A stretch of 64,000 nucleotides of DNA from Tridacna crocea. Lineage: Eukaryota > Mollusca > Bivalvia > Cardiida > Cardiidae. The notes below the pieces were generated by a model. That model did not search any database and had not been told where the DNA came from. It saw only the letters and a list, made by a program, of their open reading frames with translations. A program made the translations under genes and the position numbers. Where the stretch lies: contig OX031065.1 of NCBI GenBank assembly GCA_943736015.1, positions 21,714,427 through 21,778,426 on the forward strand, in the 5' to 3' direction. Below are positions 25,272-59,374 of the stretch, in pieces; position 1 is the first letter of the stretch, and each line of letters opens with the position of its first letter.

Positions 25272-25390
25272 TGACATGTCTGGTATTATACAACCTCTGT
25301 ATAAAAATATAATAAATACTTTATTTATAAAGACATTATAAATAAAGTCTTTATTATATCTATATAGAGGGGTTGTATGATACCAGACAT
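25272..25390. repeat. Foldback element
   Basis: 'tgacatgtctggtattatac' at the left is mirrored by its near-perfect complement ending at 25,390. The AT-rich middle is also self-complementary (ataaagtctttatt-type). Confidence 0.65.
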
Positions 25391-26876
25391 GTCATCACCT
25401 GTAGTATAACACCCTCTCCAAGTCATCAACTGACACCAACTGACCGTAAGCAATTGTAAGAAAGGAAACCAGTCAGTGCGTAAAAATAAGTGGGAACAGG
25501 AGCAAAATTTTAATGCTCCTTTTTTTTCCACAACGTTCTCCAACATCAATATCTAATATGTTCTTTCAAATTAGTGTTTAGACTGGTGAAACTAAATTTA
25601 GCTTCATGATACAAGAATGTTTATTATTCATCATGAGCCGAACTGTCAACATGTCGCATTAAATTCGTGTAACCAAACACCTTTGGAAATTTCATCGTAC
25701 AACGTTCACAGAAAAAATGTCAACATTCACAGAAAAAATGTCAACTTTATAATATATATTCCTGTAGCGTAAGATGGCAGTCAACAAAAACAAGGGCGAG
25801 AATAAAGAAAATGTCAATAAAAAACCGATAGAGGGTAATTATGCAAACAACTGTCGAACTGATGTAGAAATGGGCTGTATAAATCGCTAACTTGTTTAGA
25901 TTTCTCGGTAATACCTTATCGAATCGCCATTTTTCAGTGTTAGAAGTGATTTTCTTGGACATGGTAATTACAAGTTTACAGAGATTGGCTGCTGAATCCG
26001 TTATCAGTCCAAGGGCACGCTCTCTACAAAAACAATCCGTGGATTGATACAACTTTATTAGCAAACATTGTTATTAGAAACACGTACATGAATAACAGAT
26101 GACATTCCAGTGTGTCGTTTATACCATCGCACAATTTATGTAGGCCTACTTATACTTCGAGTCAGCCATGAATGAGGGGATAGTGTATTCCTACCATATC
26201 CAGAATTTTTCATAATACTGTAGTTTAATCCTGAAATACTGTAAAAACCGTCTGCTTCAAATTTGTAAAGGGGGAAATTTACGAAAAACGATATACTCGT
26301 TCCTATGAGTGAGATCCAGAGACTTAACGCGCCACGATCTACGCATTTCCCCCCGTTTTCAGAAAAGGGGTAAAAAAATTAATCTAGATTATGTGAAAGA
26401 AAAAAAATTAAGGAATCGGTAATGGCAGACGGATAAAACTCTTTTTCACGACCATTTCCAAATAAAAATAGCCCATGCCATAAGTTAGAAAATGAGGCGG
26501 AAAGATGCACGCATGGGAAGCAGCTAATCAAAGATGGTGTTAACAAGTAGCATCGGACCGAAATACCTCGGCTTCACATATACGTTTTGTGTGCATTACT
26601 TTAAAGACTTCTCTGCAGGGTGGAAATTACCTTAAAGTGTATTGTCATACTTTTGGTCTTGCGTCCATACATGCGCAAAAAAGGGTTTTCCCTAATTATC
26701 CTAATCTTTAAGGCATCTGCAGATTAAACAACGTCCTGGTTACTTTTTGTCTGAAACTATTTTATACCAATTAAACGACTTGCTTTAATTTCTTTGCCAA
26801 CTGTTTTCGTAAAAAAAAAAAGGCATGTGGCTTTGAGTAAACTCTGTCTTTGGACAGTATTGCATCAGCATATAAT

Positions 26877-27864: not shown

Positions 27865-27870
27865 GCGGTG
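27865..27870. other. Polinton target-site duplication, left
   Basis: GCGGTG immediately before the left terminal repeat. The identical hexamer follows the right terminal repeat at 46,668-46,673. Polintons characteristically duplicate 6 bp on integration, so this fixes both ends of the element. Confidence 0.95.
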
Positions 27871-28248
27871 ACTACAGGGGCGCCACTTTGGAGGCAAAAC
27901 AGGAAATGACTTAAGTGGTTCTTAAGTGGTTATTGACGTCATCAGCGTCACGTGGTCGTGAGTCATTGTTCTTCGATGACGTAGATAATGTATATGTAAG
28001 TTGAGAACAATGGCCAAGATCATACGATTCGAGAACAATGCCTTTCGTTTCCGTTATTTTAAAATGTCGACCAATGGCGAATCAACACGCACCATACTAA
28101 TGAACAATAGACTTTTCCTGTCATTGTTCTTCGATGACGTCGGTAATGTATATGTAAGTTGAGAACAATAGACAAGACCATACGATTCGAGAACAATGCC
28201 TTTCGTTTCCGTTATTTTAAAAATGTCGACCAATGGCGAATCAACACG
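27871..28248 (+). repeat. Polinton terminal inverted repeat, left
   Basis: Begins ACTACAGGGGCGCC. It aligns without gaps to the reverse complement of 46,290-46,667; I count about three substitutions. It contains a 158-bp-spaced direct duplication (units from about 27,963 and 28,121, each about 130 bp), a CRE-like TGACGTCA at 27,934-27,941 and an E-box CACGTG at 27,949-27,954, so it may carry enhancer elements for the genes just inside. Confidence 0.95.
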
Positions 28249-28271
28249 CACCGATGATGTCACAACCGTTC

Positions 28272-28278
28272 TATAAAA
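28272..28278 (+). promoter_or_regulatory. TATA box for the PC4-Death/TBP gene pair
   Basis: TATAAAA just inside the left TIR, 47 bp before the first ATG at 28,325, so a start about 25-30 bp downstream would leave a short leader. CRE-like sites lie upstream in the TIR. Position and match to consensus support it; no transcript data. Confidence 0.65.
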
Positions 28279-28324
28279 GCAATAACTATGAGAGGTAATC
28301 AACATTCGTTCAGATATTCTCATC

Positions 28325-29265
28325 ATGGACAGCACAAACGTCAGTCTCGGAAATAACAGATATCTGAAGGTGTGCTCGTGGAAAGGCGAGACACGCGTGG
28401 ATCTCAGAGAGTGGGAAAACGACAAACCTACGAAGAAAGGCATCAGTTTAACCTTGCTCCGCTGGAAAGAACTAGTGGACTCGATCGACGACGTGAACGG
28501 GGCATTGCGCAAGAACGAGGATTACCAGGTTCACTTAGGCGGGAATGTGTACTGTACCGTCAGGAAGAACAATCCTTGCGTGGACGTGAGACAATACTGG
28601 AAGCCCCAGGACGAGGTCGTGCCTTGTAAGAAAGGACTGTGCCTGAGACCAGCAGAATTCGAAACGCTACAAGAGAGTTTCCCAGACGTAGCAGCAGCGA
28701 TCCCCGAGTTGTCTACCCTCGTGCCTTGCCGATTTCAGAGCGATCATATGAACCAGTTGGGGTATTTGAGCTGTTCCGAGTGCAATCCCAATGACTGTGG
28801 CAATTGGTGAGTGGATACCATGGATTTAGACTTTCTCGAATAGCGCTACTACTCGTTAAAAAAACTTTGTACGGACACGTGTTTGAAATACGGAAACAAA
28901 AAACTGCATTTTACTCTTTGTTTTTTTCCAGGAGCATATTAACGCAAGAGGATATTCTAAATTATGCCAGAGAGCTAGGGCGCAACTGGGAGCTCTTTGC
29001 CGTACATCTGGGATACGAAAAACGACAACTGGACAGCTTAAAGGAACAGTATCCGAGGCAACTAGAAACTTTACTGTATGTGTTGATCAACGAGTGGCAT
29101 AAAGTTGTGAGTCAGTGTGATCGTCCTAAACCTTTACTCGCCTACGCTTTTCAAAGCGTCAGAGACAATTCAACGGCTGCCAAAATCCTGAACAACGGAG
29201 ATCGAGCCAGAAAACCCGGCCCAATTACCCTGGATAAAGTACGTGGCATTCGTTTCGAATCATGA
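28325..29265 (+). CDS. PC4/Sub1-like (two copies) fused to a Death domain
   Basis: Two exons, 28,325-28,806 and 28,932-29,265, joined across a 125-bp GT-AG intron (donor gtgagt, acceptor tttttttccag), giving about 271 codons. Without splicing the first frame stops at 28,808, right at the donor. Residues 8-61 match the PC4 single-stranded-DNA-binding/coactivator fold (PTKKGISL followed by a Trp in the helix). Residues 69-126 are a second, more diverged copy (VDVRQYW, then KKGLCL). A Cys-rich stretch follows near 150-159. Exon 2 is a Death domain (LGRNWELFAVHLG, then LDSLKEQYP and a C-terminal helix). PC4 is known as an RNA polymerase II coactivator; Death domains mediate homotypic assembly in apoptosis and innate signalling. 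That both act together here is inference. It overlaps the next gene by ATGA. Confidence 0.88.
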
Positions 29266-29771
29266 TTACCAACATTGTGTGTACAGTCGACACAAATTGT
29301 GACATTAACCTCAAAACCTTGGTAACCAAGACCGTTAATATTATATACGATCCTAATCGATATTCGGGAGCTCAGTGGAAACATCCTAAGATCGGAGGAC
29401 ATTGTATGGTGTTTTCGTCCGGAAAACTATCCGTAAACGGACGAGTATCATCTATTTCCGAGGCCAAACGACGTGTGAGAAGATACGCCAGACAACTACA
29501 ACGTTTGGGATGGCAAATACGACTTTCGAAAATTCGAGTTGTGACGATATCTGCTTCTTTCAAACTGGACTATGCGATACATTTGGGCAAAGTGTGTCGT
29601 TTTTATTCGGGAAGTTACGAACCGGAACTCTTTCCAGCAGTGATGTTTAAAATCGATGGAATACATTTCACGTGTTTTCAGTCTGGCACGGTACTCATGA
29701 CGGGTATAAAACGACAAAGTCAATTTTATACCGTATGCATACCCATTTTACTCGAATTAACGTTATTGTAA
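29262..29771 (+). CDS. TATA-box-binding protein homologue (TBP core only)
   Basis: 169 residues, close to the conserved TBP core of about 180, with no N-terminal extension. Both halves of the TBP saddle are visible. Repeat one has INLKTL, the VFSSGKLSVNG strand and the basic KRRVRRYARQLQRLGW helix. Repeat two has the hallmark SYEPELFP and the CFQSGTVLMTG strand. Of the four DNA-intercalating Phe positions, three appear kept (VFSSG, ELFP, CFQSG) and the first looks replaced by Tyr (NRYSG). The family binds TATA DNA and nucleates RNA polymerase assembly. The ATG lies in an ATGA overlap with the preceding PC4-Death gene, so the two are probably expressed together. It is diverged from cellular TBP, arguing against a very recent host capture. 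Identification is strong; its role for the element is inference. Confidence 0.9.
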   Translation: MITNIVCTVDTNCDINLKTLVTKTVNIIYDPNRYSGAQWKHPKIGGHCMVFSSGKLSVNGRVSSISEAKRRVRRYARQLQRLGWQIRLSKIRVVTISASFKLDYAIHLGKVCRFYSGSYEPELFPAVMFKIDGIHFTCFQSGTVLMTGIKRQSQFYTVCIPILLELTLL

Positions 29772-29825
29772 AGCGCTACCGGAGGGACCGCCCTAATCCC
29801 CGGCGCGCTGTATTGAGCGGGGCAT

Positions 29826-29831
29826 AATAAA
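29826..29831 (+). terminator. Poly(A) signal after the TBP gene
   Basis: AATAAA 55 bp past the TBP stop codon. The preceding 29,772-29,820 is unusually GC-rich (gcgctaccgg ... ccccggcgcgctg) for this element. Confidence 0.6.
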
Positions 29832-29886
29832 ATAAGAAAAAGAATTTTTTTGATTGTTCGTATTCTGTTGTTGTTTTATTATCATT

Positions 29887-29892
29887 TTATTT
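29887..29892 (-). terminator. Poly(A) signal after the minus-strand array
   Basis: AATAAA on the minus strand about 46 bp past the protease stop codon. With the plus-strand signal at 29,826 it forms a compact convergent terminator region between the two transcription units. Confidence 0.55.
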
Positions 29893-29937
29893 ACACATAG
29901 CATGCATATATTAAAAAAAAAAAAAAGAGAGTTATGA

Positions 29938-30354
29938 TCAAAAATGAGTCTTTTTCAACGACGACACGATTTTGTTTTTAGTCCATCCACGACACCGTAG
30001 TTTTGCGTAGTATACGCAATAAAGCCCGCAAGTTGTCGTACCAGAAGGTTGCACTCGAAGTCCATTGTACACGTAGCGAGGTCCATTCCTCTTTAACACC
30101 GTCTTGAATCGTCCGTGGTAAAAATCTGGTGCACGTCCCAAAGAATCGAAAAACTCGCAAGGTCCGAGTCTCGGAAAGTAAAAGAGGGTCCAGTGAGTTC
30201 CGGGCTGTCCTTTTTGATCGGTATTGACGATGAACAAGTTAGGACGTCTTCTTATCTTGATGGGAAGCTCGTCGGCGGCACAGACCCCTCCAAACTGTCG
30301 TCGAACCGAAGGGTCATGAGATAAGATGGCGTTCAGCTGAGATTCGTACATCAT
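29938..30354 (-). CDS. PRO: Adenain-like cysteine protease
   Basis: 138 residues, a little shorter than adenovirus proteases of about 200. The catalytic set can be read in order: His54 in GTHW, an acidic residue in CEFFDS (Asp70 or Glu67), Gln102 in RVQPSG and Cys109 in TTCGLYC. In Polintons this enzyme is thought to process capsid proteins during virion maturation. It is the last gene of the minus-strand array, and its ATG overlaps the capsid gene's stop (ATGA). The frame is intact. Confidence 0.9.
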   Translation of the reverse strand: MMYESQLNAILSHDPSVRRQFGGVCAADELPIKIRRRPNLFIVNTDQKGQPGTHWTLFYFPRLGPCEFFDSLGRAPDFYHGRFKTVLKRNGPRYVYNGLRVQPSGTTTCGLYCVYYAKLRCRGWTKNKIVSSLKKTHF

Positions 30355-31607
30355 TCCATTGTTACGTTTCTACTAGCATCGATCTTGAGTAAGGCGGGGA
30401 AATGGGCGTACACGATGACGGTACACGTCTCCGGTAGGGCTTCAGTAAACTTTAATTCCAGTCGGGTATGAGCTCTGTCCTCCGGTCTGTTTTTGATATC
30501 GCCGCTCGGTCTAAATACGTAGAGACAGTATCCTCCTTTGAAATCTTTCCTAGTAATAGGCGCAGCCCGGTCTTCGTCGTCCAAATACAAGGCCTGGTAA
30601 GCGTCGACAAACTGGTCACTCTTATAGTTCATCTGAAGGGGTTCGGAAGGTGTCGATTGGCCATCCACAAAGAAACCGGCGTAGTTACAGTCGAAATGTT
30701 GAAAGTTGAAAGGGTTCTTTTGGTAAGAGCCATGCACGGCCTCGGACAGGACTAACCCGACGATCAGTTGTTGGGGAACATCTCCTTGAAAAAGGTCGTC
30801 CGTGATGAACGAAAATTGTCCTTTGGGTACCGCATACGTCTTGATGACGGAACGTCTGTAGGGGTATATGGCGTCGTGTTTCTTGATGACGTCAGCCTGT
30901 CCCAAGATCACATCGGGGTGTACTTTCACCAAGGCCACTTTCAATGCAGCGTCAGTAATACGTAATCGGTAAGACTCGGTTCCGGACGCGGCCAATAGTC
31001 GGAAACGATCGGTATTCTGCCAGAATTTAAGGTTGATGGGGACGCCGTTCAAAATCAATCTTTCTTGTTGACACAGGTCGACGTACAGGCGCCCCGAGAG
31101 GTCCACTTCTTTACTTTCTGACGTAGATTTCGCTCGCTCGTACAATCCCACATTACCCCCGGATGGATCGGTGATGTCCATTTTCGTCCCGCTTGTGTCC
31201 TGCGCGAAAAGCTGACCGTTCAATAGGTGTTGACTTTTAGTGTTCAGCAAAGTATCTAAATAAGCTTTAAAAGCGTAATTCGTGCCCACTTGGCTGGTTG
31301 GAACTTGTTGCACGTTGACGTCCACTTGGGAAAAAATACTGTGTAAAGCGTTGTTGGTTAGTCCGACTTTTTCGCCCGATGGTAAATCGGTTCCGTCGGC
31401 TTTCAGGATTTTCAATTTGACGCTGAGGAGTAAGCTCTTGAGATCGATATAGGTCATCGATGTTCCGGGAATATTGAATTCGATCGCCGCACCTTCCGTC
31501 AGTTGATTTATGGGTCTAACTTTAATCCATTCTCTCTTTTGCGTGGCTGTCTCGACTTCCGGCCAACGAAAAAGGGCCAAGTCGTTATCGTGTTTGTCGA
31601 TATTCAT
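30351..31607 (-). CDS. MCP: Major capsid protein (double jelly-roll)
   Basis: 418 residues. Position (beside protease and penton-like gene), length and sequence character (N-terminal LFRWPEVETATQKREW, a region of alternating beta strands, C-terminal TCTVIVYAHFPALLKID) match Polinton major capsid proteins, which fold as tandem jelly rolls related to adenovirus hexon and other double-jelly-roll capsids. I assign it by pattern and context, since no short signature defines the family. Start chosen at 31,607 because it forms an ATGA overlap with the upstream small gene. No disruption. Confidence 0.88.
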   Translation of the reverse strand: MNIDKHDNDLALFRWPEVETATQKREWIKVRPINQLTEGAAIEFNIPGTSMTYIDLKSLLLSVKLKILKADGTDLPSGEKVGLTNNALHSIFSQVDVNVQQVPTSQVGTNYAFKAYLDTLLNTKSQHLLNGQLFAQDTSGTKMDITDPSGGNVGLYERAKSTSESKEVDLSGRLYVDLCQQERLILNGVPINLKFWQNTDRFRLLAASGTESYRLRITDAALKVALVKVHPDVILGQADVIKKHDAIYPYRRSVIKTYAVPKGQFSFITDDLFQGDVPQQLIVGLVLSEAVHGSYQKNPFNFQHFDCNYAGFFVDGQSTPSEPLQMNYKSDQFVDAYQALYLDDEDRAAPITRKDFKGGYCLYVFRPSGDIKNRPEDRAHTRLELKFTEALPETCTVIVYAHFPALLKIDASRNVTME

Positions 31608-31891
31608 CGCTTGAAGACGTGATCCGTATATCTCGGTTTCTTAGATCGTTTGTTTTTGGCGATCGACGGCCTCTTATAACGTCGTTTCCGCGGAGAGGTT
31701 TCCTTCTTTTCTTTCAGTTCCGATTTGGCCAGTTCTATGTCTTGAGCAATCGGAGTCACAAACGTAATCTTCGGTTCCGGACCTCCTTTTCCGCTTTGAT
31801 CGGTATCCACGATATAGCGTCCTTCGTGATTGGGTCCAATTTTTCCTTCTGCCATTCGTTCGAAATGTTTCTTCCATTTTTCTACTTCCAT
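31604..31891 (-). CDS. Small basic protein upstream of the capsid gene
   Basis: 95 residues. N-terminal amphipathic helix (EVEKWKKHFERMAEGKI), a short conserved-looking GRYIVDTDQSG segment, then a strongly basic tail (SPRKRRYKRP, KNKRSKKPRY). It overlaps MCP by ATGA and the penton-like gene by 10 bp, so it is almost certainly expressed with them. A basic tail is what one expects of a virion core or minor capsid protein, but no function is established here. Confidence 0.75.
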   Translation of the reverse strand: MEVEKWKKHFERMAEGKIGPNHEGRYIVDTDQSGKGGPEPKITFVTPIAQDIELAKSELKEKKETSPRKRRYKRPSIAKNKRSKKPRYTDHVFKR

Positions 31892-32295
31892 CTTTTCAAA
31901 TGTAAGGTACAGCGTACGATAGAATTTTTCAAATCTACAGGTTCTAGTTGTCCGCCTCTTATGAAGATTCTAATGCGGTTGAGATGGTTTCCTTTGACAG
32001 TCATGTAGGCGGGGTTTTCGAATAGAAAGTAGACGCTAGATTGCCTTCCAGGAGGTTTTTGTAAAGGGCGTAGTACTGTCGTCATCGTATTTTCCGCGTA
32101 GGATTCTTCGCAAATGTCCGAACACACGAATAAAACGTTGTCTTTCATCCGAAGCGTTATCTCTTTGAGTCCGCACACCCAGTGTCCGTCTAAAATATAA
32201 GGATAGGGTAACTCGACAGTAAAGTCTGAGGGAATGTTATTCGGGTGTTGATCAGTGGACTGAAGACTGCTCAGAAACAGGTAATGTTCTTCCAT
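31882..32295 (-). CDS. Penton-like minor capsid protein
   Basis: 137 residues. The N-terminal half has the pattern 'HPNNIPSDFTVELPYPYILDG' continuing to a WVCGLKEI strand, a layout (Asn-x-Pro, 'F-V-LP', 'G-W-GL-EI') that I associate with single-jelly-roll penton/minor capsid proteins of Polintons. It sits between the membrane protein and MCP and overlaps both neighbours. Assignment is by motif memory and synteny, less certain than MCP. Confidence 0.65.
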   Translation of the reverse strand: MEEHYLFLSSLQSTDQHPNNIPSDFTVELPYPYILDGHWVCGLKEITLRMKDNVLFVCSDICEESYAENTMTTVLRPLQKPPGRQSSVYFLFENPAYMTVKGNHLNRIRIFIRGGQLEPVDLKNSIVRCTLHLKRWK

Positions 32296-32503
32296 GGTTC
32301 AAAGATGGCGCCGGTAAAGCGTATCCTATCGCACTGCACAAAAGGCTTATCCACAGCTCGGCGTTTCCGTTCTGGAAAGACAGGTTGGCGATTGAAGTTC
32401 CGATAATAACGTATACGATGATAATTTGGCAAATGTAAACAATTTCGGCTTTCGGGACCCTACCACCAAAAAATCTCCACTCCTGACTGTCGCCTCCGTT
32501 CAT
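32252..32503 (-). CDS. Small two-segment membrane protein
   Basis: 83 residues with a hydrophobic segment at about 22-40 (IVYICQIIIVYVIIGTSIA) and a second at about 51-66 (WISLLCSAIGYALPAP). The motif W-(I/V)-S-L-L-S-x-x-GY-LP-xP recurs, as I recall, in small proteins of other Polintons near the penton gene. Its 3' end overlaps the penton-like gene by 44 bp. The function is unknown; an internal virion membrane or host membrane role is speculation. Confidence 0.7.
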   Translation of the reverse strand: MNGGDSQEWRFFGGRVPKAEIVYICQIIIVYVIIGTSIANLSFQNGNAELWISLLCSAIGYALPAPSLNHGRTLPVSEQSSVH

Positions 32504-32541
32504 CTTAAGTCAACGAAACATGGTTCGTGTCGAAGGGTCTC

Positions 32542-33654
32542 TTATGAACTAAATTTGACTAAATCCGTTTCTGGTATCCAAGAGTCATATTTTGTAGGCC
32601 AGTGTAACCATCGAACCAATAACTCCCTTCTGTTATTTCTCGTCCTTCTCTTCAATATTTTTTCCACATAGTATTCTTTGTTTTCATCTACATTTACGGA
32701 TTGCAGTTCCTGTTCGTAAAAGGTACCTTTTACTTCTTCACCGGACCAATCTTCGATCGTATACACGGGTATTCCTTCTCTTCTAAATCGTCGCTTGACC
32801 TTAAAGAGCTCACCCGTCCATTTTTGAGAGTATTCTCTGTCAAACACGTTTTTAATGCGAGAAATTCGTACCACCTGACCTATTTTGAGGGAAAACCGTT
32901 TCTTTTCCGTACTTTTGCCTTTAACACGTTTTTTTCGCAGAATATACTGTTCGTATCTGCTCTCGGCCTCGTTGTCTTGATTGATTGAGTCGGGTGGTCT
33001 TCCGAGGGAGGAATGCTTGGTTCGATTGTAGCTACTCACTATCTCTTGTAGCACGTCGATGTAACGCCGGGTTCTACGTCCGATGAAATATCGATAAATC
33101 CTTTGCTTTATGGTCTTGATAAGTCTTTCCGCGTAGTTCGCTTTCACTTCCGTATTTTGACTGTTAAAATGATGTATATTTCTGTCTTTGAAAAACTTTG
33201 ACACTATTTTATTATTGAACTCTTTTCCTTTGTCCGTACGTATCGTCTCGGGTTGTCTCCGATTTAAGATACGTTCCAGAGCATGTTTCACCTGTCCAGC
33301 CGTTTTATCTCGTACGGGCCAACACCGGGCGAATCTGCTAAACACGTCGATAGCTACCAACACGTATTGATGGCCGTCGTTAGTATCGGCCACGTCTTTC
33401 ATGTCCATCAGATCAACGTCCCACTGACTGTCTAATCCTTCAACGAGAACCCTAGATCGGTTAAACTTGCGCCTCACCCCTTTGGTCAGGGAATACGCAT
33501 CTTGGTCTCTCAGCCATTTAGAAATCTTGTGTTTGCCAATGTTGTATTTTCCCTCCGCCTTTACGGTTTCATACAATTTGTCTGGGCCCGCATAACTTCC
33601 GGGATAATTGGGGTCGAAATAAATGGATGACAAATACTCTTTCCATTCCGCCAT
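32542..33654 (-). CDS. INT: DDE integrase with C-terminal chromodomain
   Basis: 370 residues. The retroviral-type catalytic core carries Asp81 (WDVDLMDM), Asp141 (IRTDKGKEF) and Glu176 (NYAERL), with 34 residues between the last two. No N-terminal HHCC zinc motif is seen; the first 75 residues are a Polinton-type helical region. Residues 328-369 look like a chromodomain (EYYVEKILKRR, VRWLHWPTKYDSWIP), which in related integrases reads chromatin marks and steers insertion. The enzyme would join the TIR ends to target DNA and create the 6-bp duplication seen at the borders. A T-rich run precedes the ATG on the plus strand. Confidence 0.94.
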   Translation of the reverse strand: MAEWKEYLSSIYFDPNYPGSYAGPDKLYETVKAEGKYNIGKHKISKWLRDQDAYSLTKGVRRKFNRSRVLVEGLDSQWDVDLMDMKDVADTNDGHQYVLVAIDVFSRFARCWPVRDKTAGQVKHALERILNRRQPETIRTDKGKEFNNKIVSKFFKDRNIHHFNSQNTEVKANYAERLIKTIKQRIYRYFIGRRTRRYIDVLQEIVSSYNRTKHSSLGRPPDSINQDNEAESRYEQYILRKKRVKGKSTEKKRFSLKIGQVVRISRIKNVFDREYSQKWTGELFKVKRRFRREGIPVYTIEDWSGEEVKGTFYEQELQSVNVDENKEYYVEKILKRRTRNNRRELLVRWLHWPTKYDSWIPETDLVKFSS

Positions 33655-33664
33655 TTTTTTTTTT

Positions 33665-33907
33665 TCAATCGTCGATCCAAGCTTTCCGTTCCTTTTTTTT
33701 CTTTCGTCCGTTTCTCACTGGGATACCGGGAGGTCCCTCACGTCGCTGAATGTCTGTTGAAAGAGTGCGAGTCGTCCCAGCCGTGGACCGATCTGTTTTT
33801 ACGATTTTATCTACTTCCGATGGTCTTTCGATGTCGCGGTTCGAAGCCGCGATTAAACGTTGGTATTTTTGAAACGGGAGCAACACGGACTTCTGCAAGG
33901 TACTCAT
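33665..33907 (-). CDS. Small basic protein of unknown role
   Basis: 80 residues, starting with a short hydrophobic/aromatic stretch (SVLLPFQKYQRLI) and ending in a lysine cluster (GRKKKKERKAW). Its ATG overlaps the upstream helical gene by ATGA, and it ends 10 bp before the integrase start. Position and the tight overlap support it as real; the N-terminal pattern resembles small accessory proteins I have seen in other Polintons. It could be a core or membrane-active peptide precursor, but this is unproven. Confidence 0.65.
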   Translation of the reverse strand: MSTLQKSVLLPFQKYQRLIAASNRDIERPSEVDKIVKTDRSTAGTTRTLSTDIQRREGPPGIPVRNGRKKKKERKAWIDD

Positions 33908-34230
33908 TTTATGAAAGTCATCAAAGCCGGTTCCACGGCTCTGAGAAACTGAATCACTGCCTTCGTTTTCCTTCTCAAAGTTTGTCTTTTGTCTCTGAGT
34001 GTCACGGATTTATCGGCGAGTCGTCGTATCAGGCCTCTGTGTCTTTCCAACGTTGCGAGCACGGACGATGGCACGGTAAACGTTTTCTGCAAAAAGTTGA
34101 TGGCGATCTGAACCAACGCTTTCAGCTGATCCCGCGTGATCGTGTTTAGTAAAGCTTGTCTCTGTTTGTTCGACGTCTTGGATAACAAAAGTCTAAAAAA
34201 GGTCCACTGACGTTTGACCAATTGACTCAT
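33904..34230 (-). CDS. Helical basic protein (paralogue of 35,291-35,710)
   Basis: 108 residues, predicted all-helical. It has a conserved core: KQRQALLNTITRDQLKALVQ, then a central 'ERHRGLIRRLADKSVTLRDK' and a basic end. This layout aligns well with the protein at 35,291-35,710 (NRRLLLQNMTEAQTEAV, VLRTLASDRVSMRRKK). Similar small proteins are common in Polintons and their virus relatives, with no proven function known to me. It starts 33 bp after the ATPase gene and overlaps the next gene by ATGA. Confidence 0.75.
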   Translation of the reverse strand: MSQLVKRQWTFFRLLLSKTSNKQRQALLNTITRDQLKALVQIAINFLQKTFTVPSSVLATLERHRGLIRRLADKSVTLRDKRQTLRRKTKAVIQFLRAVEPALMTFIK

Positions 34231-34263
34231 TATTACACGAACTAGAGGCTTTTGGGTTGTCTC

Positions 34264-35244
34264 TTATAAACTTTTGTATACGATAATATCTTCATCTCGA
34301 AACACCCGTGTCCTAAGTCGATACTCGTCTTTTCCTCTGGGAGTCAGGTCAATCAAGAGGTAACCGAATGGCTCCCTGGTAGCATCGTCGAACGCTTCCG
34401 TCAATAATCGGGATTTTCCGGGAAAAAGCTGACGTCCCAAAGTCTGAATTTGAGAAGTTCCTCGTATGTTCTTGAAGAGCACCATGTACCAGCAGTTCAG
34501 GGCTATGGTTCTCGCCGATTTCCCTTGACCGTAAATGTTCTGGCTGATAAAAACGACACTAAGTTTCCTATGATGACACCCTCTCGTAAATAGTAATTCT
34601 GTCGTCTTGCTATTTAAAACTTCGTGCATGAGGTCGTCCAAGACGATGAGATCGTGCTCGCCACCCGCAAATTCTTCTATTTCCGATTCTGTAGGTACCC
34701 CCTGATGTAGGGTTAAACGCGGGACTCGTCTTTCCATGTCTTCGAATAAGTCCTGGTAGATACCGTAACAGTACAAAATTTTTCTGGGTGGCGTGCGGTA
34801 CAAGTAGTTAAGCTGTTGTAGATAGTCGAATGTCCATCTGGTTTTACCCGAACCCGTCGGTCCGGCGATCATGATACTGGAACAGGGCTCGAGAGGTAAC
34901 GGGTTTGTCTCCCGCGGCGGCGGCGGCGGCGGCGGCGTGTCCCTCATATATTCTGGCGGCGGGTCTGTGTTTTGCATAGGTTTTTGCGGCGGCGGCGGTG
35001 GCGACGTGTCCGGCTGTGTATCACGCCGCATTGGTGGCAGAGGGTTCCGTTGTGTATAACGCCGCATAGGTGGTGATGTGTTCCGCATATACCTTTGCGG
35101 TGGTGACGACGTTGTTTCGTGTTTTTGTTTTGGTTGTGATACGTTTAACTCATCTCTTTGAACTCCGTAGTGTAAATTTCTAAGATGACGTAACATAACG
35201 TCCCTCCTGGAAAACGTTCGTCGACATTCCGGGCACACATTCAT
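34264..35244 (-). CDS. ATP: Packaging ATPase with N-terminal zinc finger
   Basis: 326 residues in three parts. Residues 4-25 are a C2H2 zinc finger (Cys4, Cys7, His20, His25). Residues 45-120 are a low-complexity Pro-rich linker with repeats of the type (P)RRYTQRNPLPPMRR, including poly-Pro runs encoded by CGG/CCG tracts. From 121 comes a FtsK/HerA-type ATPase with Walker A GPTGSGKT (128-135), Walker B LIVLDD (199-204) and a SQN sensor (234-236). Such ATPases drive genome packaging into the capsid. The zinc-finger fusion could give sequence-specific DNA recognition, for example of TIR ends; that is inference. Confidence 0.9.
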   Translation of the reverse strand: MNVCPECRRTFSRRDVMLRHLRNLHYGVQRDELNVSQPKQKHETTSSPPQRYMRNTSPPMRRYTQRNPLPPMRRDTQPDTSPPPPPQKPMQNTDPPPEYMRDTPPPPPPPRETNPLPLEPCSSIMIAGPTGSGKTRWTFDYLQQLNYLYRTPPRKILYCYGIYQDLFEDMERRVPRLTLHQGVPTESEIEEFAGGEHDLIVLDDLMHEVLNSKTTELLFTRGCHHRKLSVVFISQNIYGQGKSARTIALNCWYMVLFKNIRGTSQIQTLGRQLFPGKSRLLTEAFDDATREPFGYLLIDLTPRGKDEYRLRTRVFRDEDIIVYKSL

Positions 35245-35290
35245 TTTATTTTCACAAAGATATGAAAAGAAAGAACGTTTGCGTCTCTTA

Positions 35291-35710
35291 TTACTGTTCC
35301 GAACTTCTTATTTCGTCTACGATAGTGCGAATTATATATCGGTCTCTCAGCACAATAGCGATTAAAGAATGATAGGCTCTAATCAACGTCTTTTTCCTCC
35401 GCATACTAACTCTGTCCGAAGCCAAAGTTCTTAACACTGTCAAGTTTCTGGTAAATTTTTGACTGTCACGTCTCAGCGGGTTAATAGACCCGTCCACTAT
35501 CCTCTTGACGACTTCGCACACTGCCTCAGTTTGGGCTTCGGTCATGTTTTGCAGCAGTAACCGCCGATTTTCCGCCGCTCTCAAGGATACCAAGAAATTC
35601 AAGTGTAAGAATACTCTCGATCCTTCCATGGTGTTATCGGTAACACGAAATATTGGTCTCTTCTGGTTTTTGAAATATGTTACAGAGTTGGACTTTATTT
35701 TCTTTGACAC
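35291..35710 (-). CDS. Helical basic protein (paralogue of 33,904-34,230)
   Basis: 139 residues from the first ATG; an internal Met at residue 28 (MEGSRVF) would give a protein matching the length of its paralogue and may be the real start. It has the same helical core and the same 'LASDRVSMRRKK' type end. It lies between the polymerase stop (15 bp away) and the ATPase gene (46 bp). Two diverged copies in one element suggest ancient duplication and separate structural jobs; function unknown. Confidence 0.75.
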   Translation of the reverse strand: MSKKIKSNSVTYFKNQKRPIFRVTDNTMEGSRVFLHLNFLVSLRAAENRRLLLQNMTEAQTEAVCEVVKRIVDGSINPLRRDSQKFTRNLTVLRTLASDRVSMRRKKTLIRAYHSLIAIVLRDRYIIRTIVDEIRSSEQ

Positions 35711-35725
35711 CGTCCTCTTATGATT

Positions 35726-38700
35726 TTAAAACCCAAATGGTACTGTATCGAAGTTCTGTAAAATCACCCGTTTGTCATACACTATTCTGTACTCTTTCTT
35801 TTCTTCTTTGTTGTATAAGATGTTGTTATATTTGTCCCTGGATATTTTGTTCGGGTTCAAAGCGATAATAACTTTAGATGGAGGTACTTCCCCATCTTCC
35901 AATTTTCTTTTCCTGTAGGTGTGTGTTTTGTTTGGGTTGATGTTAGTCACCATGTCTCTGACACTGCCGAAATTCAGTCGTTGAGCGTTGGTATAGTTGA
36001 GACTGAATCCCCGTATCTTACAGGACTGTTTGCCTTCAATGGTTTCGTAGGCATAGTTTTTAGGCCCGCCACTCACAAACTCGACGATGTGATCTCCTCG
36101 GTCTAATTCGTTTGTCAGCTCACCTGAAAAAAAAAAAAGAAAAGCGTTTAGTTATCTATAGAATGTAAATAAAAACCGAAAAAGAAGGCAACACATTTAA
36201 AAAAATAAACTGTTATGAAGCACATACTTAACGTAAGAAATAAGAACCAAGTATGATATGAGGTTACTTTGTTACCTACCCAAGTAATCCCCCAAAGGTG
36301 GATCGTATTGTCCCGGTCTGCTGACGTAGATGACCGAGTCCGTGTCATAATACAACACTTGATCGCCAAGTTGGTCCAGTATTTCGTACAGCTTGAGTCG
36401 TGCCCAGCAGGTGGTGAATGTGGCCAGGAAGATGTTGGTCTTCATGTCTTCCGGTACGAATCCGGACTGATGTTCGTACTCGAGGTGAAGGTGGTCCTCG
36501 TTGATGATATGAAAATCCTTCACCTTCTTAGTACGATCGGTCAGCGTTTTGTAGAATTTATCCAGCTGCGAGGAATGGATAAATTCGCAGACCCCTTGGT
36601 TTAGTCGCTGACCAAATTTACCCCAGAAACTGTAAAATAAAAAAAGTTTTACTTTTATGTTGTACTGAAAAGAAAAAGAAATTCAGTAAACATTTGAACG
36701 TGATACAATTCAAAATCAAATAAAAAAGTACAGTTACCTGTTCAGGCAGAGCTTGGCCAGGGCACGGAGTCCGGGATTCTTTTTGATCTTGTCTGGCTCC
36801 AACTCGATACCCTCGTTGTAGAAATAGTCAGAGACGTATTTCTCTTTGTCAATCACCGTCTCGCACCAGGCAGGCCATCCACTCGCTTCCTGTTTAAACT
36901 TCAGGAAAGTGTTGACGTAGTTGTCAAATAGTCCCCCTTGTTTCGTTTTGCGATCGTACTGCATGGATTCTTCCCAGTGGTATACCTCGTAAATTTTAAG
37001 TAAAGTGTATCCCTTGTCCAAAGCTCTTTCAATTTCCGGGGTACACCACGTTCCGACGAAAGACCTGTGTTCGTCCGTGTGACGGCAAGTTGTTTGGCAG
37101 TCCGAATCAGCGCATGTACGGCAGAGTGGAAATTTCAGTTTACCATTGGAGCGATACGGTAGCACAGGGTGGTATAATCCTCTGGGTGGCAGAATCTTTA
37201 CTTTGACAATCCCGAAGTAGCTGCGGATGTCTTCAAAGTCTCTCGTGATGATCTTTGGATGACCGCGGGGATACCGACAATACTTGTTGACGTATGGGTA
37301 AAGACTGAAAAAAAAAAAGAACATTTCTATAAGTTTCAATTATCTATAGTTTATAGCGTATTTTTTTTTTTATTTTCCGATAATACAAAAGTGTACGAAA
37401 ACGTTTAATCGCTTTAAAAATATTACCTCGTAAAGTCAACGTATTTGATTTTCTCGTCATCCCCCGTCTTGTAATGTAGCTTGGCAGCATTGGTTCTGCC
37501 CCCGAAGAAGGAATCCCTCGCATTCAGTCGGTCCTGTATATCCAGGTTGGCCACAAAGTCTTGGATCGACGGATCCTCCTGGATCTGTTTTAACCACTCG
37601 TGCTCCCAGATGCACACGTAGTTGAAACGAAGGTCCTGGGTCAGTTTTTTTCTCTTGATTTGAGTCAAGGCATACAACTGCTCCATGGTTTGACCAGTCT
37701 TTGGGTTCTTGGCGGTGCGGTCGGGATAACACTGCGGGCAGCCGTGCCATAAACAACCTGTAAATACAGCCATTCGTATTCTTTGTTTATTTCCTAATAA
37801 ATGGAGCGGAGAAAGGAAAATGTCTACGAAAAAAGATCAGTTTCAAAATGGATACATGTCCGTTGTATGCACTTACCATGATATTCGTACACTGTATTCC
37901 CGGCACGACCGTCCACCTTGTAGTTTGTACCAAAAATGGTGTCTTCTCCCCCGTTCAAAGCATGTTGAATGGTCAAAGGATTCCCATTCTGTCGGGCGAG
38001 TTCCATTTGGTACTCCAGCCATTGAATGGAAGCCCTACTGTAGTTATCCCTCTGAGTGTAGCCGCTGCTGGATACTTGGGCTATCGGGGAAACTATGGGT
38101 TTCTTTTCCACCACTTTTGCTTCCTTGCAGGCTTGAACCCAGAATCTCTTGTTGATTTGCTTGACCCACCCTTTCAATGTTTTTTTTGCTTTGACAGGAC
38201 CATCCCCCGCGCCATTTGGCCATTCGAACGTTGCCTTGTAATCGGCTTCCAGGAACCTGCGCAAATATAAAAAAAAAAAACATTTTTAGATATCACTGTA
38301 TTTTAGGAAATACTATGGTATTTGATGTTTATGTATCCTTTTTTTTTTAGGTTGTAAAAAGACACACTAGTTACCTTGTTTTGAAGATGCCCATGCAGAC
38401 ACTGGCGATGGTGACGTACTGGAAAGGGTCGACTTCTGTGGCATCGAGCATAAGCTTCCGGAACTGCAGACACGCACGTCTCAGTATGTCGACGTCAGAT
38501 CGGCAGTAGTCCTCCATTTCTGTGCGGAAATTGAACACGGCATCGCTTTCCGTCTTTTCTTTGTGCCACTGGAGGAACGAAGCTCGGTCGGTCGTCGACA
38601 TGTAGTCTGCTCCGTACGACTTCGGTTCCGGGTAAGGTCCTACGTAGTTTTGGTTCTCCCTGGTGTTGAAAAAGTGGGGGAAGTAGCCTTTACAAAGCTC

Positions 38701-40595
38701 TTGCAACCCGAAAGCTTTGGGAAGCGCTGCCAACTTCATTGGTAAAAAATTCAGGGAGTCCAGGATTCTAATCTGTAGACCTTTGCCTACCTCCATGTAC
38801 ATGATCTTGGAGCCGTTGTAGATCACTTTAGAAGGCCGAATGCTATGGTTTACAAGGTACTCCAGGAGGAACACGCCGTCATAGCCCTGAAAAAAAAAAA
38901 GATAAAAACGTAGGTTTAAAAGTCACATTCTTTTACGCATATACGCCTTATTGCTAAAAAGTTCAACATCTATTTCACTCAAATACGTGTTTGCAGCAAC
39001 AAGGATCGTAAGTGATATGAAGCCTAGGAGTATTACAAAACAAAAATGCTGTTAAGTTTCATTTTAACTCTACTATAAGATTCCTCAGTATTAAATTCTT
39101 CGAAATAACTCGCTTCTTAGTCGTGGTCGGTTAGTATACATACCTTCATGTTATGAGCCATCACGGTACTGTGTTTGTGCTGGATGCTAAACAACCATCG
39201 GCCAAAATCGTCGAGAGTATGGTCCCCTTGAAAGATGACCTCCCTCTTGCCACAGGTTTCTGGGCACGGGTCTTTGACGTAGGTCTTGGCCTCGTTGTCC
39301 CACGTATCGCACTCGGTGCATCGGCTGCCGCAGTTGTCGCATACGGCTCCCGGGACAAGTTCTTCCTCCATACAACACTCGCACACCGTCTGAGCTACTA
39401 CAAAATTGGGAACGTGTCTGGGTTGTCCGCACCATGACTTGAAGCAGCGGTGACATTTGGTGCAATCCTGGCAAGGGGTCTGGCAACAGTTCTTGGGCGA
39501 GTATCCGTCCGTACATTCGGCGATCGTGTCTTGAGTAGCCTCGAAATCGAAAAAAATAAACTTTCTGACGGGTTTCTTCGGCTCCTCCGGAAACAAATAG
39601 CACTGGTGGTTACCGGTGACCCAGGACTTGCAGCATTTGCACAGCCATTCTGCGCATTCGTGCAACTCCACGGGTCGCTTGAAACGGTTAACCACCTTTT
39701 TGCAGGTCGTACACCGCCAGAACTCGTCACACTGGGATAAACTGACCTCTCCTTTGTCCCCGTTTCTTCTCGTCTTTTGAACTTTGTGCCTGTCGAAACA
39801 TTCTTTAGACCGACAGACCATGTGGCAGGACCGGCACGACATCATATCGTCGGTTTCCGGGCACTTTCGATTCTTGCAGGTCAGACACGTGGTCTCGCAT
39901 CGGTGTTTTGTGTTGTGGTCGTACTGTTTGAAGCATCGGTCGCAGAAATATCTCGCCGAGAAAAAGCCCGTGATATTGGTGATGATATGGAAATGACTGA
40001 TGCCTTCGTGGTTCACCAAGTAAAGATATAGGAGAGGCCAGTCTTCGTGGTCGTTGGAGGGTACTCGTATAAATTTATTCCCTAGCGAGGCTGCTACTAC
40101 GGCGATTCGAATTTGAAGCGCCTCTTCGAAGGCTGGAAGGTCATTCATATTACCAGGTCGGTCGGAAGGGATGCCGCTAGTTTTACATAAAAGGAGAGCG
40201 AGATACTTCTGTTCCTGACGGTTTTTGTTCTTAATATCTTTGAATCCCAGGGCCGAAATTTGACGATATCGAGCAAGAATCTCTACGTTTGTCAAGAATT
40301 TGTTGCTCTGTTTTACAAATTCCCACGCTTCATCGGAGATCACGCTGTGTTTGGCCAAACCTACGCCGATCGCTCTTGCCAAGCACAGTTGGTCGTCGTT
40401 TACGATCTGGACCATTGAAGACTTCCGGTGAATGGAATTGTCGGGTCCCGTCAAGTTTGTCACTCGCTGTCTACCTCTACCCTGGGGAATGTGCAGCGCT
40501 CCTACCATAACTGAAAAAAAAGCAAACGTTACGAGTTTAAACGTACAATAAAAACATAATCACAATGAATAATAATTAAAAAAAAAAAACATAAG

Positions 40596-40628
<33 letters not shown>

Positions 40629-41857
40629 CAATCACAATTTATCGTTAATATTTAAATCAAATTATTATTATCACTACCTTGAAAAGAATCGTCGATGGCT
40701 AGATTCTCTTCGCTTTGTAAAACGTCTTCGACCTTGGACAGGATCTTCTCCACATTTACATTCCCCGCCGCCTGTAAAGGGACCACAATGGCGTGATTGA
40801 GTGCATCGTGTCGTATAACGACCCGCAGTAAGTCGTTATCGTTAATATCATCCCTCGCCCGAGCCAACAGTTCTTCGAAAAGACGTCGTAATTGCCTCTG
40901 TATGTCACTTAGTCGTCTCCCCTGCCATTCGTCGTTGAAGCGTACTTTGTACGTCGATTCTGTGGCCGTTGTCCTGGCGAATCGCCTGGTTCCTGTCAGT
41001 TCGATCCGATAAGGAGCCTCGTCCGCACCGCCCACCTGTTCTTGGGCAGGGTCGACCCGGACGTTTGAAGGTTCGGGCATTTCCACGACACGTTGTCTTC
41101 CAGATGGACCGGGTACTGGTGACGTAGACCTGGCGTGGGATTCGCGGTGTCTAGCGAAGGTCTCATAGCCTTGGCATCTTAAATTGCAGCGGGAGCAATA
41201 AAAGGTTTTACCAGTCCTGTGAAAATAATAATAATATGATGATGCTCGATCCCCAGGCTCGGCCAATATTTTTTTCCGAGGATTGATGATTTTCAATACG
41301 ACAGGATTCATTCCTTTTCTCACCGCTTCATTTGTTTAGACGATGGTTATGTGTTAAAGCGGCCAGTGGCTTGGAAAGAATCTTGTGCGGAGGACTGGTG
41401 AAAAGAACTCCAGGAAAAAAGCGGGATAGGTGCTCTGGTCACCACAATATCAATCAATCATTATTACTTTTTATATTAAGAAAAGACAGTCAGTCTTTTT
41501 TTCTAGAACTTACCTAAATTCTCCGTCATTCAGGCAGGCTAGAGACGCGGAGGCAATGTCTTCATGTTTCATTGCTGTAGCCGTAAAACCCGGAGACCAA
41601 GGTTCAAAGTCGGAGTCAGACTCGGTCTCACCACGAGGCGGGGATCTCAAAGATTCAATAAGGTTGTCAGCATCTTCTTGGATCCATTCGGAAAGAGATA
41701 AAGACGTATGGGTGGATTCTTCCTGCACCATTAAATGATGCAGAATGTCGATACAAAATGGATCCTCTTGAATTCCATAGGCAACGGTAAATCGTTGAAA
41801 ATCTTCGACAGAGACGTTACTCTCTAGTAAAGCCTCAATTACGTTTTCGAATGACAT
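35726..41857 (-). CDS. POLB: Protein-primed family B DNA polymerase, nine exons
   Basis: Exons: 41,857-41,514; 41,216-40,678; 40,510-39,144; 38,886-38,375; 38,256-37,877; 37,757-37,427; 37,304-36,738; 36,629-36,280; 36,123-35,726. All junctions are GT-AG and keep frame, giving 4,788 nt or 1,595 residues, at the long end for Polintons. Exon 1 is acidic. Exon 2 has a C2H2-like finger (YCSRCNLRC ... RHRESH). Exon 3 has a Cys-rich zinc region then ExoI (FFDFEAT). ExoII spans the exon 3/4 splice; ExoIII (YCRSDVDIL) is in exon 4. Polymerase motif A spans exon 6/7, motif B spans exon 7/8, and motif C (YYDTDSV) is in exon 8. It should replicate the element using a protein primer at the TIRs. Intron 1 holds a SINE fragment and intron 2 a 31-bp poly-A run (minus strand). 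The start ATG is preceded by an acceptor-like 'tttcag', so a 5' non-coding exon is possible. Confidence 0.92.
41290..41470 (+). repeat. SINE fragment in polymerase intron 1
   Basis: 'gacaggattcattcc' and 'gacgatggttatgtg' followed by 'agcggccagtggcttggaaa' match, with changes, the SINE at 55,905-56,175. It lies entirely between exon 1 and exon 2 of the polymerase, so it is spliced out. Confidence 0.65.
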
Positions 41858-41958
41858 TCTGAAATGGGAAAATAACAATATAATCATAAACAAGATTTTA
41901 TAGTACTTATTACTTCCCTTTCATCAACAATAAAATTTCAACTGACTGACCATCACGG

Positions 41959-41966
41959 ATATATAG
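41959..41966 (-). promoter_or_regulatory. Possible TATA box for the DNA polymerase
   Basis: CTATATAT on the minus strand about 100 bp upstream of the proposed polymerase ATG at 41,857. Position is reasonable, but AT-rich context makes chance matches likely. Confidence 0.4.
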
Positions 41967-42116
41967 CTCTTGACTTCAATTCAGGAAATCCCTTAACAAG
42001 TCTTACGTTTTATTTACCATTTGGATCACGAGCAGTATGTCTATACGTATTCGTTTTTCTCTTTTCAAAGTATATTTTGAATTTAAGGGTTAATAGAGAG
42101 ACAAGTCATCAATTGA

Positions 42117-42450
42117 TTGAATGGCGTTTTACATCGTTCTCAACAGTATTTCAGTCCATATCACGACCACCGCTCACATTATTTATGTCTTTCCAGGGTT
42201 CCACCGGTACTAGGCTGGGGCTCTGAAGTGTCTTGCCCAAGAACACCCCCACGAAAAAATCCACTGGATTCAGTGCAACTCAAACCGAGGACCCGTGGAT
42301 TACGATACTTTTTACCACTGAGCCACGCGGGACCCCGAGAGACAAGACAGTTCTGGGCTGGGGCTCTTAAGTGTCTTGCCTAGGAACACTCTCACGAAAA
42401 GCCCACTGGATTCAGTGTGGCTCAAACCGAGGACCCGTGGATTACGATAC
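42117..42450 (-). repeat. tRNA-derived SINE, dimer-like, inside the Polinton
   Basis: The first unit (to about 42,345) has the 'acatcgttctcaacagtatttc' body and, on the minus strand, box A 'tggctcagtgg' and box B-like 'ggtttgag'. A second, 5'-truncated unit (about 42,345-42,450) repeats the 'tggggctcttaagtgtcttgcc ... gaggacccgtggattacg' part. It lies in the gap between the polymerase and the right-hand gene. Confidence 0.7.
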
Positions 42451-42562
42451 TTTTTTTTTAACCCCTGATCTAAACAGACAAACAGACCGAAATATAAATG
42501 AGAAAAACAAAGAAAAGTATTTTGCGAATGCGTTAACCCTTATTCGATAAAGCCTGACAAAA

Positions 42563-42755
42563 TTAACTCCTTTACTAAACGACAAAACTTTAAGACTCGT
42601 CAAAATAGAGAAGCATTATGCAAACGACAAAATAAATGTGACCCATTACTTAAAATTTGTTTTGGGGAACGGTTGAGAATAATGTGGGAAAAGAAGAAAA
42701 TGCCGGTTACCAGCAGTTTCTCCCACAATGTTTTTCAAAGTTCCTTTCCATCAGC
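42563..42755 (+). repeat. TTAA hairpin family B, truncated, inside the Polinton
   Basis: Starts TTAACTCC, then 'gacaaaactttaagactcg' and the hairpin 'gaaaatgccggttaccagca' with a shortened right arm. The right TTAA end is lost. Confidence 0.55.
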
Positions 42756-42891
42756 ATCGTTCGACAATAGATCAGAATCCTTTTTGAAAGGAGGATCTTA
42801 ATCCACTAACAATGAAATCCGGTTTTATTGTTCATTCTATTGTACTAACCTTCCAGGATACTCTTCGATCTTGTCTTCGATTTATTGAATC

Positions 42892-42899
42892 TATATAAA
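42892..42899 (+). promoter_or_regulatory. TATA box for the right-end gene
   Basis: TATATAAA 64 bp upstream of the proposed ATG at 42,963, leaving a leader of about 35 bp. Confidence 0.55.
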
Positions 42900-42962
42900 G
42901 GTCCAATGTACCTCTTCGCTTTCTGTATGGTTCAAACGTTTCGCGTTCCAAGACAAAGAAAA

Positions 42963-46070: not shown

Positions 46071-46289
46071 TAATTCTTTGTGTGCGTTATAATAATTAGT
46101 GATAAATATTTTAAAGTATTGGTATACTTGTGTTGTAATCTGTTCAACAATCTTACCTCCAGTTGATTCCGTTTCCAATAATCACACACTGTGTTAGATG
46201 TATTGCCGTTGAGTGGCTTCTTGTATTGTTCACTCTTATGTAGTGTCGGTACTAGGACGTAGATATATACGTCATTTCTTAGTATGGCA

Positions 46290-46667
46290 CGTGTTGATTC
46301 GCCATTGGTCGACATTTTTAAAATAACGGAAACGAAAGGCATTGTTCTCGAATCGTATGGTCTTGTCTATTGTTCTCAACTTACATATACATTACCTACG
46401 TCATCGAAAAACAATGACAGGAAAAGTCTATTGTTCATTAGTATGGTGCGTGTTGATTCGCCATTGGTCGACATTTTAAAATAACGGAAACGAAAGGCAT
46501 TGTTCTCGAATCGTATGGTCTTGGCCATTGTTCTCAACTTACATATACATTATCTACGTCATCGAAGAACAATGACTCACGACCACGTGACGCTGATGAC
46601 GTCAATAACCACTTAAGAACCACTTAAGTCATTTCCTGTTTTGCCTCCAAAGTGGCGCCCCTGTAGT
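46290..46667 (-). repeat. Polinton terminal inverted repeat, right
   Basis: Reverse complement of the left TIR, 378 bp, ending ...GGCGCCCCTGTAGT. No indels against the left copy, and about three substitutions. Confidence 0.95.
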
Positions 46668-46673
46668 GCGGTG
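46668..46673. other. Polinton target-site duplication, right
   Basis: GCGGTG, identical to 27,865-27,870. Confidence 0.95.
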
Positions 46674-59072: not shown

Positions 59073-59374
59073 TCATATTTTTCTTCTTTGAGAGAGTATA
59101 GAAACACTCCGTTGAAAAGGACTAGTCGCCTTTAAATTCCAATTACTTTTAGAGATGGAAAGTGGGCCATATACTTTTCATAAATTTAATTCAAAGGATT
59201 CTTGTAAATTTAAAAACGTCTGCATTTTCAGCTAGCTGAGCTATGCACCAATTGAGTAATTCATAAAAAAAGTAGTAACATGTAAGTTTGGAATTTAATT
59301 TTCTGTACCGTTATGTGACACCACACACATAAAATTCACGAGTTTAAAATGAATCACGTGACTGTATATTGCAG

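Follow-up and report, generated by a model that had tools for sequence, protein, structure and literature searches.

A gene located at the left end of a complete Polinton in Tridacna crocea is predicted to encode a fusion of two PC4 domains with a Death domain, and its stop codon is overlapped by the start codon of a TBP gene. The analysis covered one copy of one element, within a window of 64 kb (the whole stretch of 64,000 nucleotides that was analysed). The fusion gene consists of exon 1 (28325..28806, plus strand) and exon 2 (28932..29265, plus strand), and these boundaries agree, exact to the base, with those given in a preliminary description of this DNA. After the predicted splicing, the product has 271 amino acids, the frame being kept across a junction of phase 2. 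A profile search, proposed there as a check on the PC4 and Death families, placed both above the Pfam cut-off (25 bits for PC4 and 22.6 bits for Death). Exon 1 matched PF02229 in two stretches with E 1.2e-23, and the claim of two PC4 domains was borne out for each of them separately: PC4 domain 1 (residues 7-52; 28343..28480, plus strand) gave E 1.4e-14 and 53.7 bits alone, and PC4 domain 2 (residues 71-117; 28535..28675, plus strand) gave E 6.7e-8 and 32.4 bits alone. The Death domain claimed for exon 2, which also holds a short tail, was recovered as PF00531 with E 5.6e-6 and 26.8 bits, and the score was 28.1 bits when the first 66 residues of this exon were used alone. The matched stretch (28954..29100, plus strand) corresponds to positions 7-54 of the 86-position profile, and the remainder of the Death domain probably continues downstream of 29100. 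As judged from these scores, both the PC4 and the Death matches exceed chance.

By sequence comparison with PDB, PC4 domain 1 was matched with PC4 proteins (E 4e-7 to 6e-7), and only a weak match was obtained for PC4 domain 2 (E 0.75). Exon 2 was closest to the death domain of PIDD (E 3e-4), with RIPK1 and FADD next. Single-sequence AlphaFold models were poor, with mean pLDDT of 43.6 for exon 1 and 48.6 for exon 2, and fold searches with these poor models detected nothing at E ≤0.001 for either exon. MoSub1 was the first but non-significant match for exon 1 (E 0.043). The poor model of exon 2 contained six helices and gave 14 matches, none significant; death domains accounted for five of the first six entries, headed by that of nuclear matrix protein p84 (E 1.5, non-significant). 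As its nearest solved relatives by sequence are the PIDD, RIPK1 and FADD death domains, the Death domain might be a decoy for host adaptors of this kind, blocking cell death or NF-kB signalling during replication. The preliminary description had offered a link of this kind, in which element transcription or replication is coupled to blocking or sensing of host death or NF-kB-type signals, and it would be one of several possible readings of a Death domain. PC4 is also put beside an apoptosis-related domain in IAP type G3 of hard clam and mussels, a BIR+PC4 type of clam and mussel IAP genes, although the partner there is BIR and not Death (PMC7831173). Death domains also occur, however, in proteins of the nucleus whose role is not specifically apoptotic, of which p84 (the above non-significant match) is one, and the association with PC4 and TBP suggests nuclear work for the domain described here. 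A decoy is, in our judgement, rather unlikely.

The two exons are separated by a likely intron of 125 nt (28807..28931, plus strand; GTGAGT...TTTTTTTCCAG), as indicated by splice-site scores and by a dip in GC content, which is 0.36 in the intron vs 0.51 in exon 1 and 0.46 in exon 2. The preliminary description had pointed to strong splice sites and a frame-preserving junction, and both stood when all sites of the window were ranked and the phase 2 junction was checked. On both strands of the 64-kb window, the acceptor AG at 28930-28931 ranked 4th among 7,024 AG and the donor GTGAGT from 28807 ranked 29th among 7,470 GT, by a generic matrix with which runs of T alone also score well. Between 28325 and 29800 on the plus strand, 28930 was the sole acceptor with a score above 4, and 28807 was the better of two donors with a score above 3. 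The open frame of exon 2 is devoid of methionine, and a Death protein started from ATG therefore requires the splice. Given the lack of methionine in the Death frame, the high-ranking sites and the kept frame, splicing of exon 1 to exon 2 is likely.

When the intron is retained, translation meets a stop immediately (TGG TGA; TGA at 28808-28810) and a PC4-PC4 product results. This clean stop would suit a separate use of the two exons, with PC4-PC4 ending at this TGA and the Death stretch being either a relic or part of a different splice product. Such two-PC4 proteins are known in bay scallop, where three of the five PC4 genes encode two PC4 domains and two of these three are single-exon genes for 212 aa; the tandem PC4 is as found here, but no Death domain is mentioned in the text (PMC9223095). 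The separate use of the exons is nevertheless very unlikely, because the Death frame stays open to its end without a methionine, the sites are strong, the frame is kept and the GC content dips in the intron. Introns may be a regular feature of this element, since the top four acceptors of the window are all located within it and two of them lie just above other ORFs: 38888 precedes the start of a polymerase ORF by 14 nt, and 36125 precedes that of a 116-aa ORF by 49 nt. The acceptor at 45482, also among the top four, adjoins no assigned gene, and the fifth-ranked acceptor, at 37306, falls within the 5' portion of a different polymerase ORF. The high scores of 38888 and 37306 suggest that the polymerase ORFs are split by introns rather than by decay.

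The location of the fusion gene in a Polinton, as claimed in the preliminary description, was supported by the TIRs, the target duplication, the integrase and the type B polymerase. The complete insertion extends from 27871 to 46667 (18,797 bp). Its left TIR (27871..28248, plus strand) and right TIR (46290..46667, minus strand), each of 378 bp, are identical at 375 of the 378 positions, and the 6-bp target site duplication GCGGTG is present in identical form directly outside both TIRs (27865..27870 and 46668..46673). A tandem duplication of 158 bp (27962-28252) overlaps the left TIR, and the ATG of the fusion gene is located 77 bp beyond the inner end of this TIR. On the minus strand, we identified an adenain-like protease (29938..30354; Pfam Peptidase_C5, E 5.6e-4 and 20.1 bits, just below the cut-off of 21.3), a 418-aa ORF taken by its position only as capsid candidate (30351..31607), an integrase with chromodomain (32542..33654; E 1.7e-14 for Pfam rve and 3.5e-9 for Chromo), a packaging ATPase candidate (34264..35244) with weak AAA and Pox_A32 matches below the cut-off (16 bits vs 22.8 for Pox_A32), and a type B DNA polymerase region of several ORFs (36734..40508), two of which matched DNA_pol_B_2, the viral/organellar kind, with E 3.8e-19 and 6.1e-10. 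For the 418-aa ORF there was no Pfam match, and PDB gave unrelated chains only (E 0.47 or worse); its assignment as double jelly-roll major capsid protein is thus assumed from its place. The stop and start codons overlap as ATGA both between a 95-aa ORF and the capsid candidate (31604-31607) and between the capsid candidate and the protease (30351-30354). A low-GC stretch at 41.9-46.3 kb, with no gene assigned, contains an array of tandem repeats of about 148 bp (43115-45044).

The TBP gene had gone unnoticed in the preliminary description. Its ATG at 29262 shares bases with the TGA at 29263 of the fusion gene (ATGA), and the gene (29262..29771, plus strand) encodes a protein of 169 aa with two TBP repeats (Pfam PF00352, E 5.1e-26), each of which exceeds the cut-off separately (54.2 and 41.1 bits vs 22.9). 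In PDB, 35 distinct sequences were matched at E ≤0.001, with the best E of 2e-20, and the entries that we take to be archaeal TBP ranked last. The element TBP is 30% identical to human TBP and 30% identical to yeast TBP. The YEPELFP loop, presumably the stirrup that holds TFIIB, is unchanged from both human and yeast TBP. Of the four positions taken as the intercalating Phe that kink the DNA, three are Phe (51, 124 and 139) and one is Tyr (34) in the element TBP. On the DNA face, alignment to yeast TBP gives T124 changed to N and N159 to T (yeast numbering), at what would be polar central contacts. Possible changes at groove contacts, presumably V203 to H and L205 to T in the same numbering, hinge on gap placement and differ in a second alignment. 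The scores against the human TBP-like factor TBPL1 and against TBP were 74.3 and 73.5 bits, a tie with which descent from either TBPL1 or TBP would be compatible. TBPL1 is said not to bind TATA. With the overlapping TBP gene, the weight moves toward transcription initiation. A left-end early unit could then encode the transcription-initiation proteins of the element itself, its TBP and PC4 driving the late genes, and on the sequences at hand we give this reading a little less than an even chance.

In PC4, single-strand binding involves the stacking residues F77 and W89, both of which are needed, and the charged residues are R70, R86, R100 and K101 (PMC4350104). As judged from the alignment, PC4 domain 1 carries Arg, Trp, Arg and Glu at PC4 positions 70, 77, 86 and 89, respectively, and PC4 domain 2 carries Val, a gap, Arg and Trp at the same four positions; Lys is present at positions 100 and 101 of both domains. 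Within neither domain did the alignment give the F77/W89 aromatic pair, each PC4 domain having one aromatic position, and a complete single-strand site in each domain is therefore doubtful, although a PC4-like action of the protein is possible. The single aromatic per domain rather suggests that the tandem may act as a pseudo-dimer with a composite site. The PC4-Death protein might instead serve, like the adenovirus DNA-binding protein, as a single-strand binding protein for protein-primed replication, with cooperativity given by the Death domain and with TBP as a separate matter. Protein-primed replication exposes single strands, the polymerase ORFs match DNA_pol_B_2, a family including protein-primed polymerases, and the fusion gene adjoins the terminus of the element. 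Single-strand binding is, as noted, known in the PC4 family (PMC4350104), but one of the two stacking residues is lost in each PC4 domain and the fusion gene shares bases with the gene of a transcription factor, TBP. A replication protein of this kind is, in our estimate, unlikely.

For the reading in which the left-end unit encodes transcription-initiation proteins, the boxes above the genes are of interest. The TATAAAAG box of the PC4-Death gene (28272..28279, plus strand), identified by consensus match only, is located 53 nt above the ATG; the element has no other copy, and the whole 64-kb window has four. No TATA-like box was found within 150 nt upstream of the TBP start. A perfect CRE (TGACGTCA) is present in both TIRs, the left copy being at 27934, and the left TIR contains in addition two further TGACGT sites, an E-box and two CCAATGG boxes. 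CRE and E-box are not specific to the TIRs, as 6 CRE and 13 E-box places were counted in the window. The TIR, with its CRE and CCAATGG around the 158-bp duplication, has the appearance of an enhancer-like end. The arrangement of CRE in the TIR recalls the ATF sites in adenovirus early promoters. A bacterial promoter scan of the window, a method not applicable to this DNA, found nothing.

A second box, ATAAGAG, was first spotted by eye, post hoc, in the 130 nt above each start. The element contains eight copies, all eight on the minus strand, of which seven form a cluster on the capsid side (29.9-36.1 kb), all on the coding strand. These are located 271 nt above the protease start (30619..30625), 70 nt above the start of the capsid candidate (31671..31677; TATAAGAG), 71 nt above the 95-aa ORF (31956..31962; CATAAGAG), 250 nt above a 137-aa ORF (32539..32545; CATAAGAG), 37 nt above a 108-aa ORF (34261..34267; TATAAGAG), 47 nt above the start of the ATPase candidate (35285..35291; AATAAGAG), and 11 nt above the GTG of a 139-aa ORF, or 92 nt if the first ATG of this ORF is taken as its start (35715..35721; CATAAGAG). 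The flanks are partly shared, with T two before the box in six of the seven and C two after in five. The eighth copy (46233..46239, minus strand; CATAAGAG) is located 51 bp inward of the right TIR. It faces inwards, and its placement resembles that of TATAAAAG inward of the left TIR.

Seven copies in the cluster compare with a mean of 0.48 after shuffling, and none of 500 shuffles reached seven. The distance from the box to the start was 30-100 nt, a range picked after the distances were known, in four of the seven copies (p 0.002) with the GTG start of the 139-aa ORF, or in five (p 1e-4) with its first ATG. After correction for the best 7-mer (with at least three different bases), 5 of 200 cluster shuffles gave a 7-mer with as high a z, and in 68 of 2,000 shuffles of the 14 upstream stretches some 7-mer was present in at least five of them. 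Among these 14 stretches, each of 150 nt, only five contain ATAAGAG, and neither box, even with one mismatch, was found in the 150 nt above PRO, the 137-aa ORF, INT, ORF116, PolB, ZnF and TBP. In the whole 64-kb window ATAAGAG was not clearly enriched (13 vs 9.3; 15 of 100 shuffles reached 13), and within the cluster (29900-36100, minus strand) it was outranked by TATGCGG, with 5 copies vs 0.13 expected from shuffles. The enrichment of ATAAGAG is a moderate signal and not a firm one.

A canonical TATA near the end, a TATA variant at the particle genes and a diverged TBP of its own suggest an early-late switch of the element. In such a switch, host TBP would first read TATAAAAG of the left unit; the element TBP would then bind (T/C)ATAAGAG at the particle genes, via the DNA face changed at the box contacts, and would recruit TFIIB and Pol II through the kept stirrup loop. 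The tandem PC4, as a pseudo-dimer, could hold the melted promoter or the replicating single strand. The Death domain might multimerise the fusion protein, dock on a host Death-domain protein or serve as a decoy, and these roles (multimerisation, nuclear docking, decoy) may hardly be ranked by the evidence. Since the start of TBP lies on the stop codon of the fusion gene, splicing may choose between two outputs: PC4 alone would be made when the intron is kept, and PC4-Death together with TBP, the latter by re-initiation, when it is removed. Taken jointly, these elements would form a core-promoter system of the Polinton's own, composed of a diverged TBP for (T/C)ATAAGAG, a tandem PC4-Death co-factor and TBP translation controlled by splicing, in which the Death domain links the use of promoters either with self-assembly or with the death signalling of the host. 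The joint reading is possible, yet doubtful.

The preliminary description knew of no protein with the PC4-PC4-Death architecture, and this is consistent with the literature searched. In this literature, in which few subscription papers were covered, a PC4 domain and a death domain were not found together, and neither a Polinton with PC4 nor a Polinton with a death domain was found. With Polinton/Maverick elements (and adintoviruses, their viral forms), the present element shares long TIRs, the 6-bp duplication, the integrase-chromodomain, the type B polymerase, the adenain-like protease (just below the cut-off) and accessory genes near the ends, and it is unlike them in having TBP, PC4 and Death genes. 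Polinton/Maverick elements of vertebrates measure 12.7-24.6 kb, have TIRs of 46-1,447 bp and contain accessory regions, and their commonest ends are AGTAGT...ACTACT, vs ACTACA...TGTAGT here; this source makes no mention of PC4, TATA or death (PMC8097293). Neither transcription nor TATA is mentioned in PMC11071308. TBP is carried by 59% of mirusvirus genomes (PMC10132985), and mirusviruses, which share TBP with this element, differ in that their genomes are of hundreds of kb, their hosts are plankton and their capsid is of another type. Where TBP came up in the Polinton literature covered, its carriers were mirusviruses or elements regarded there as relatives of mirusviruses, and no TBP in Maverick/Polinton elements was found among the matches listed in the literature searched. 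If true, the present element would be the first Polinton reported with TBP, and PC4-Death would be a new domain partnership, both as far as the literature searched shows.

Late promoters of virophages (mavirus and others) have a common short motif above the particle genes. Virophages borrow the machinery of giant viruses, whereas this element would bring its own TBP. Animal Polintons are regarded as endogenous viruses, and the way in which their particle genes are switched on is, to our knowledge, not described. An element equipped with its own TBP, with PC4 as co-factor and with a distinct TATA variant makes this switching testable in vitro with few purified parts.

Relatives of the element proteins were also searched for in viral collections. 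Single-protein scans of IMG/VR, which detect close relatives only, gave no confirmed relative of exon 1, TBP, the capsid candidate or the integrase, and none was confirmed in IMG/VR with alignments (TBP plus human and yeast; PC4). By protein, no relative of the capsid candidate, the integrase, TBP or exon 1 was found in a phage collection. TBP models of NCBIfam were far below their cut-offs for the element TBP, and the other ORFs gave two stray matches (E 0.04-0.09). Matches in PHROGs were weak only (E 0.0017 or worse), including that of exon 1 to a DNA-binding family (E 0.011). In the 64-kb window, neither a tRNA nor an Rfam match at gathering score was detected. Two further features were observed outside the element: an open frame of 540 aa (59348-60970), and an inverted repeat (25272-25394), perhaps a small hairpin transposon, whose 59-bp arms are 90% complementary and enclose a loop of 5 nt.
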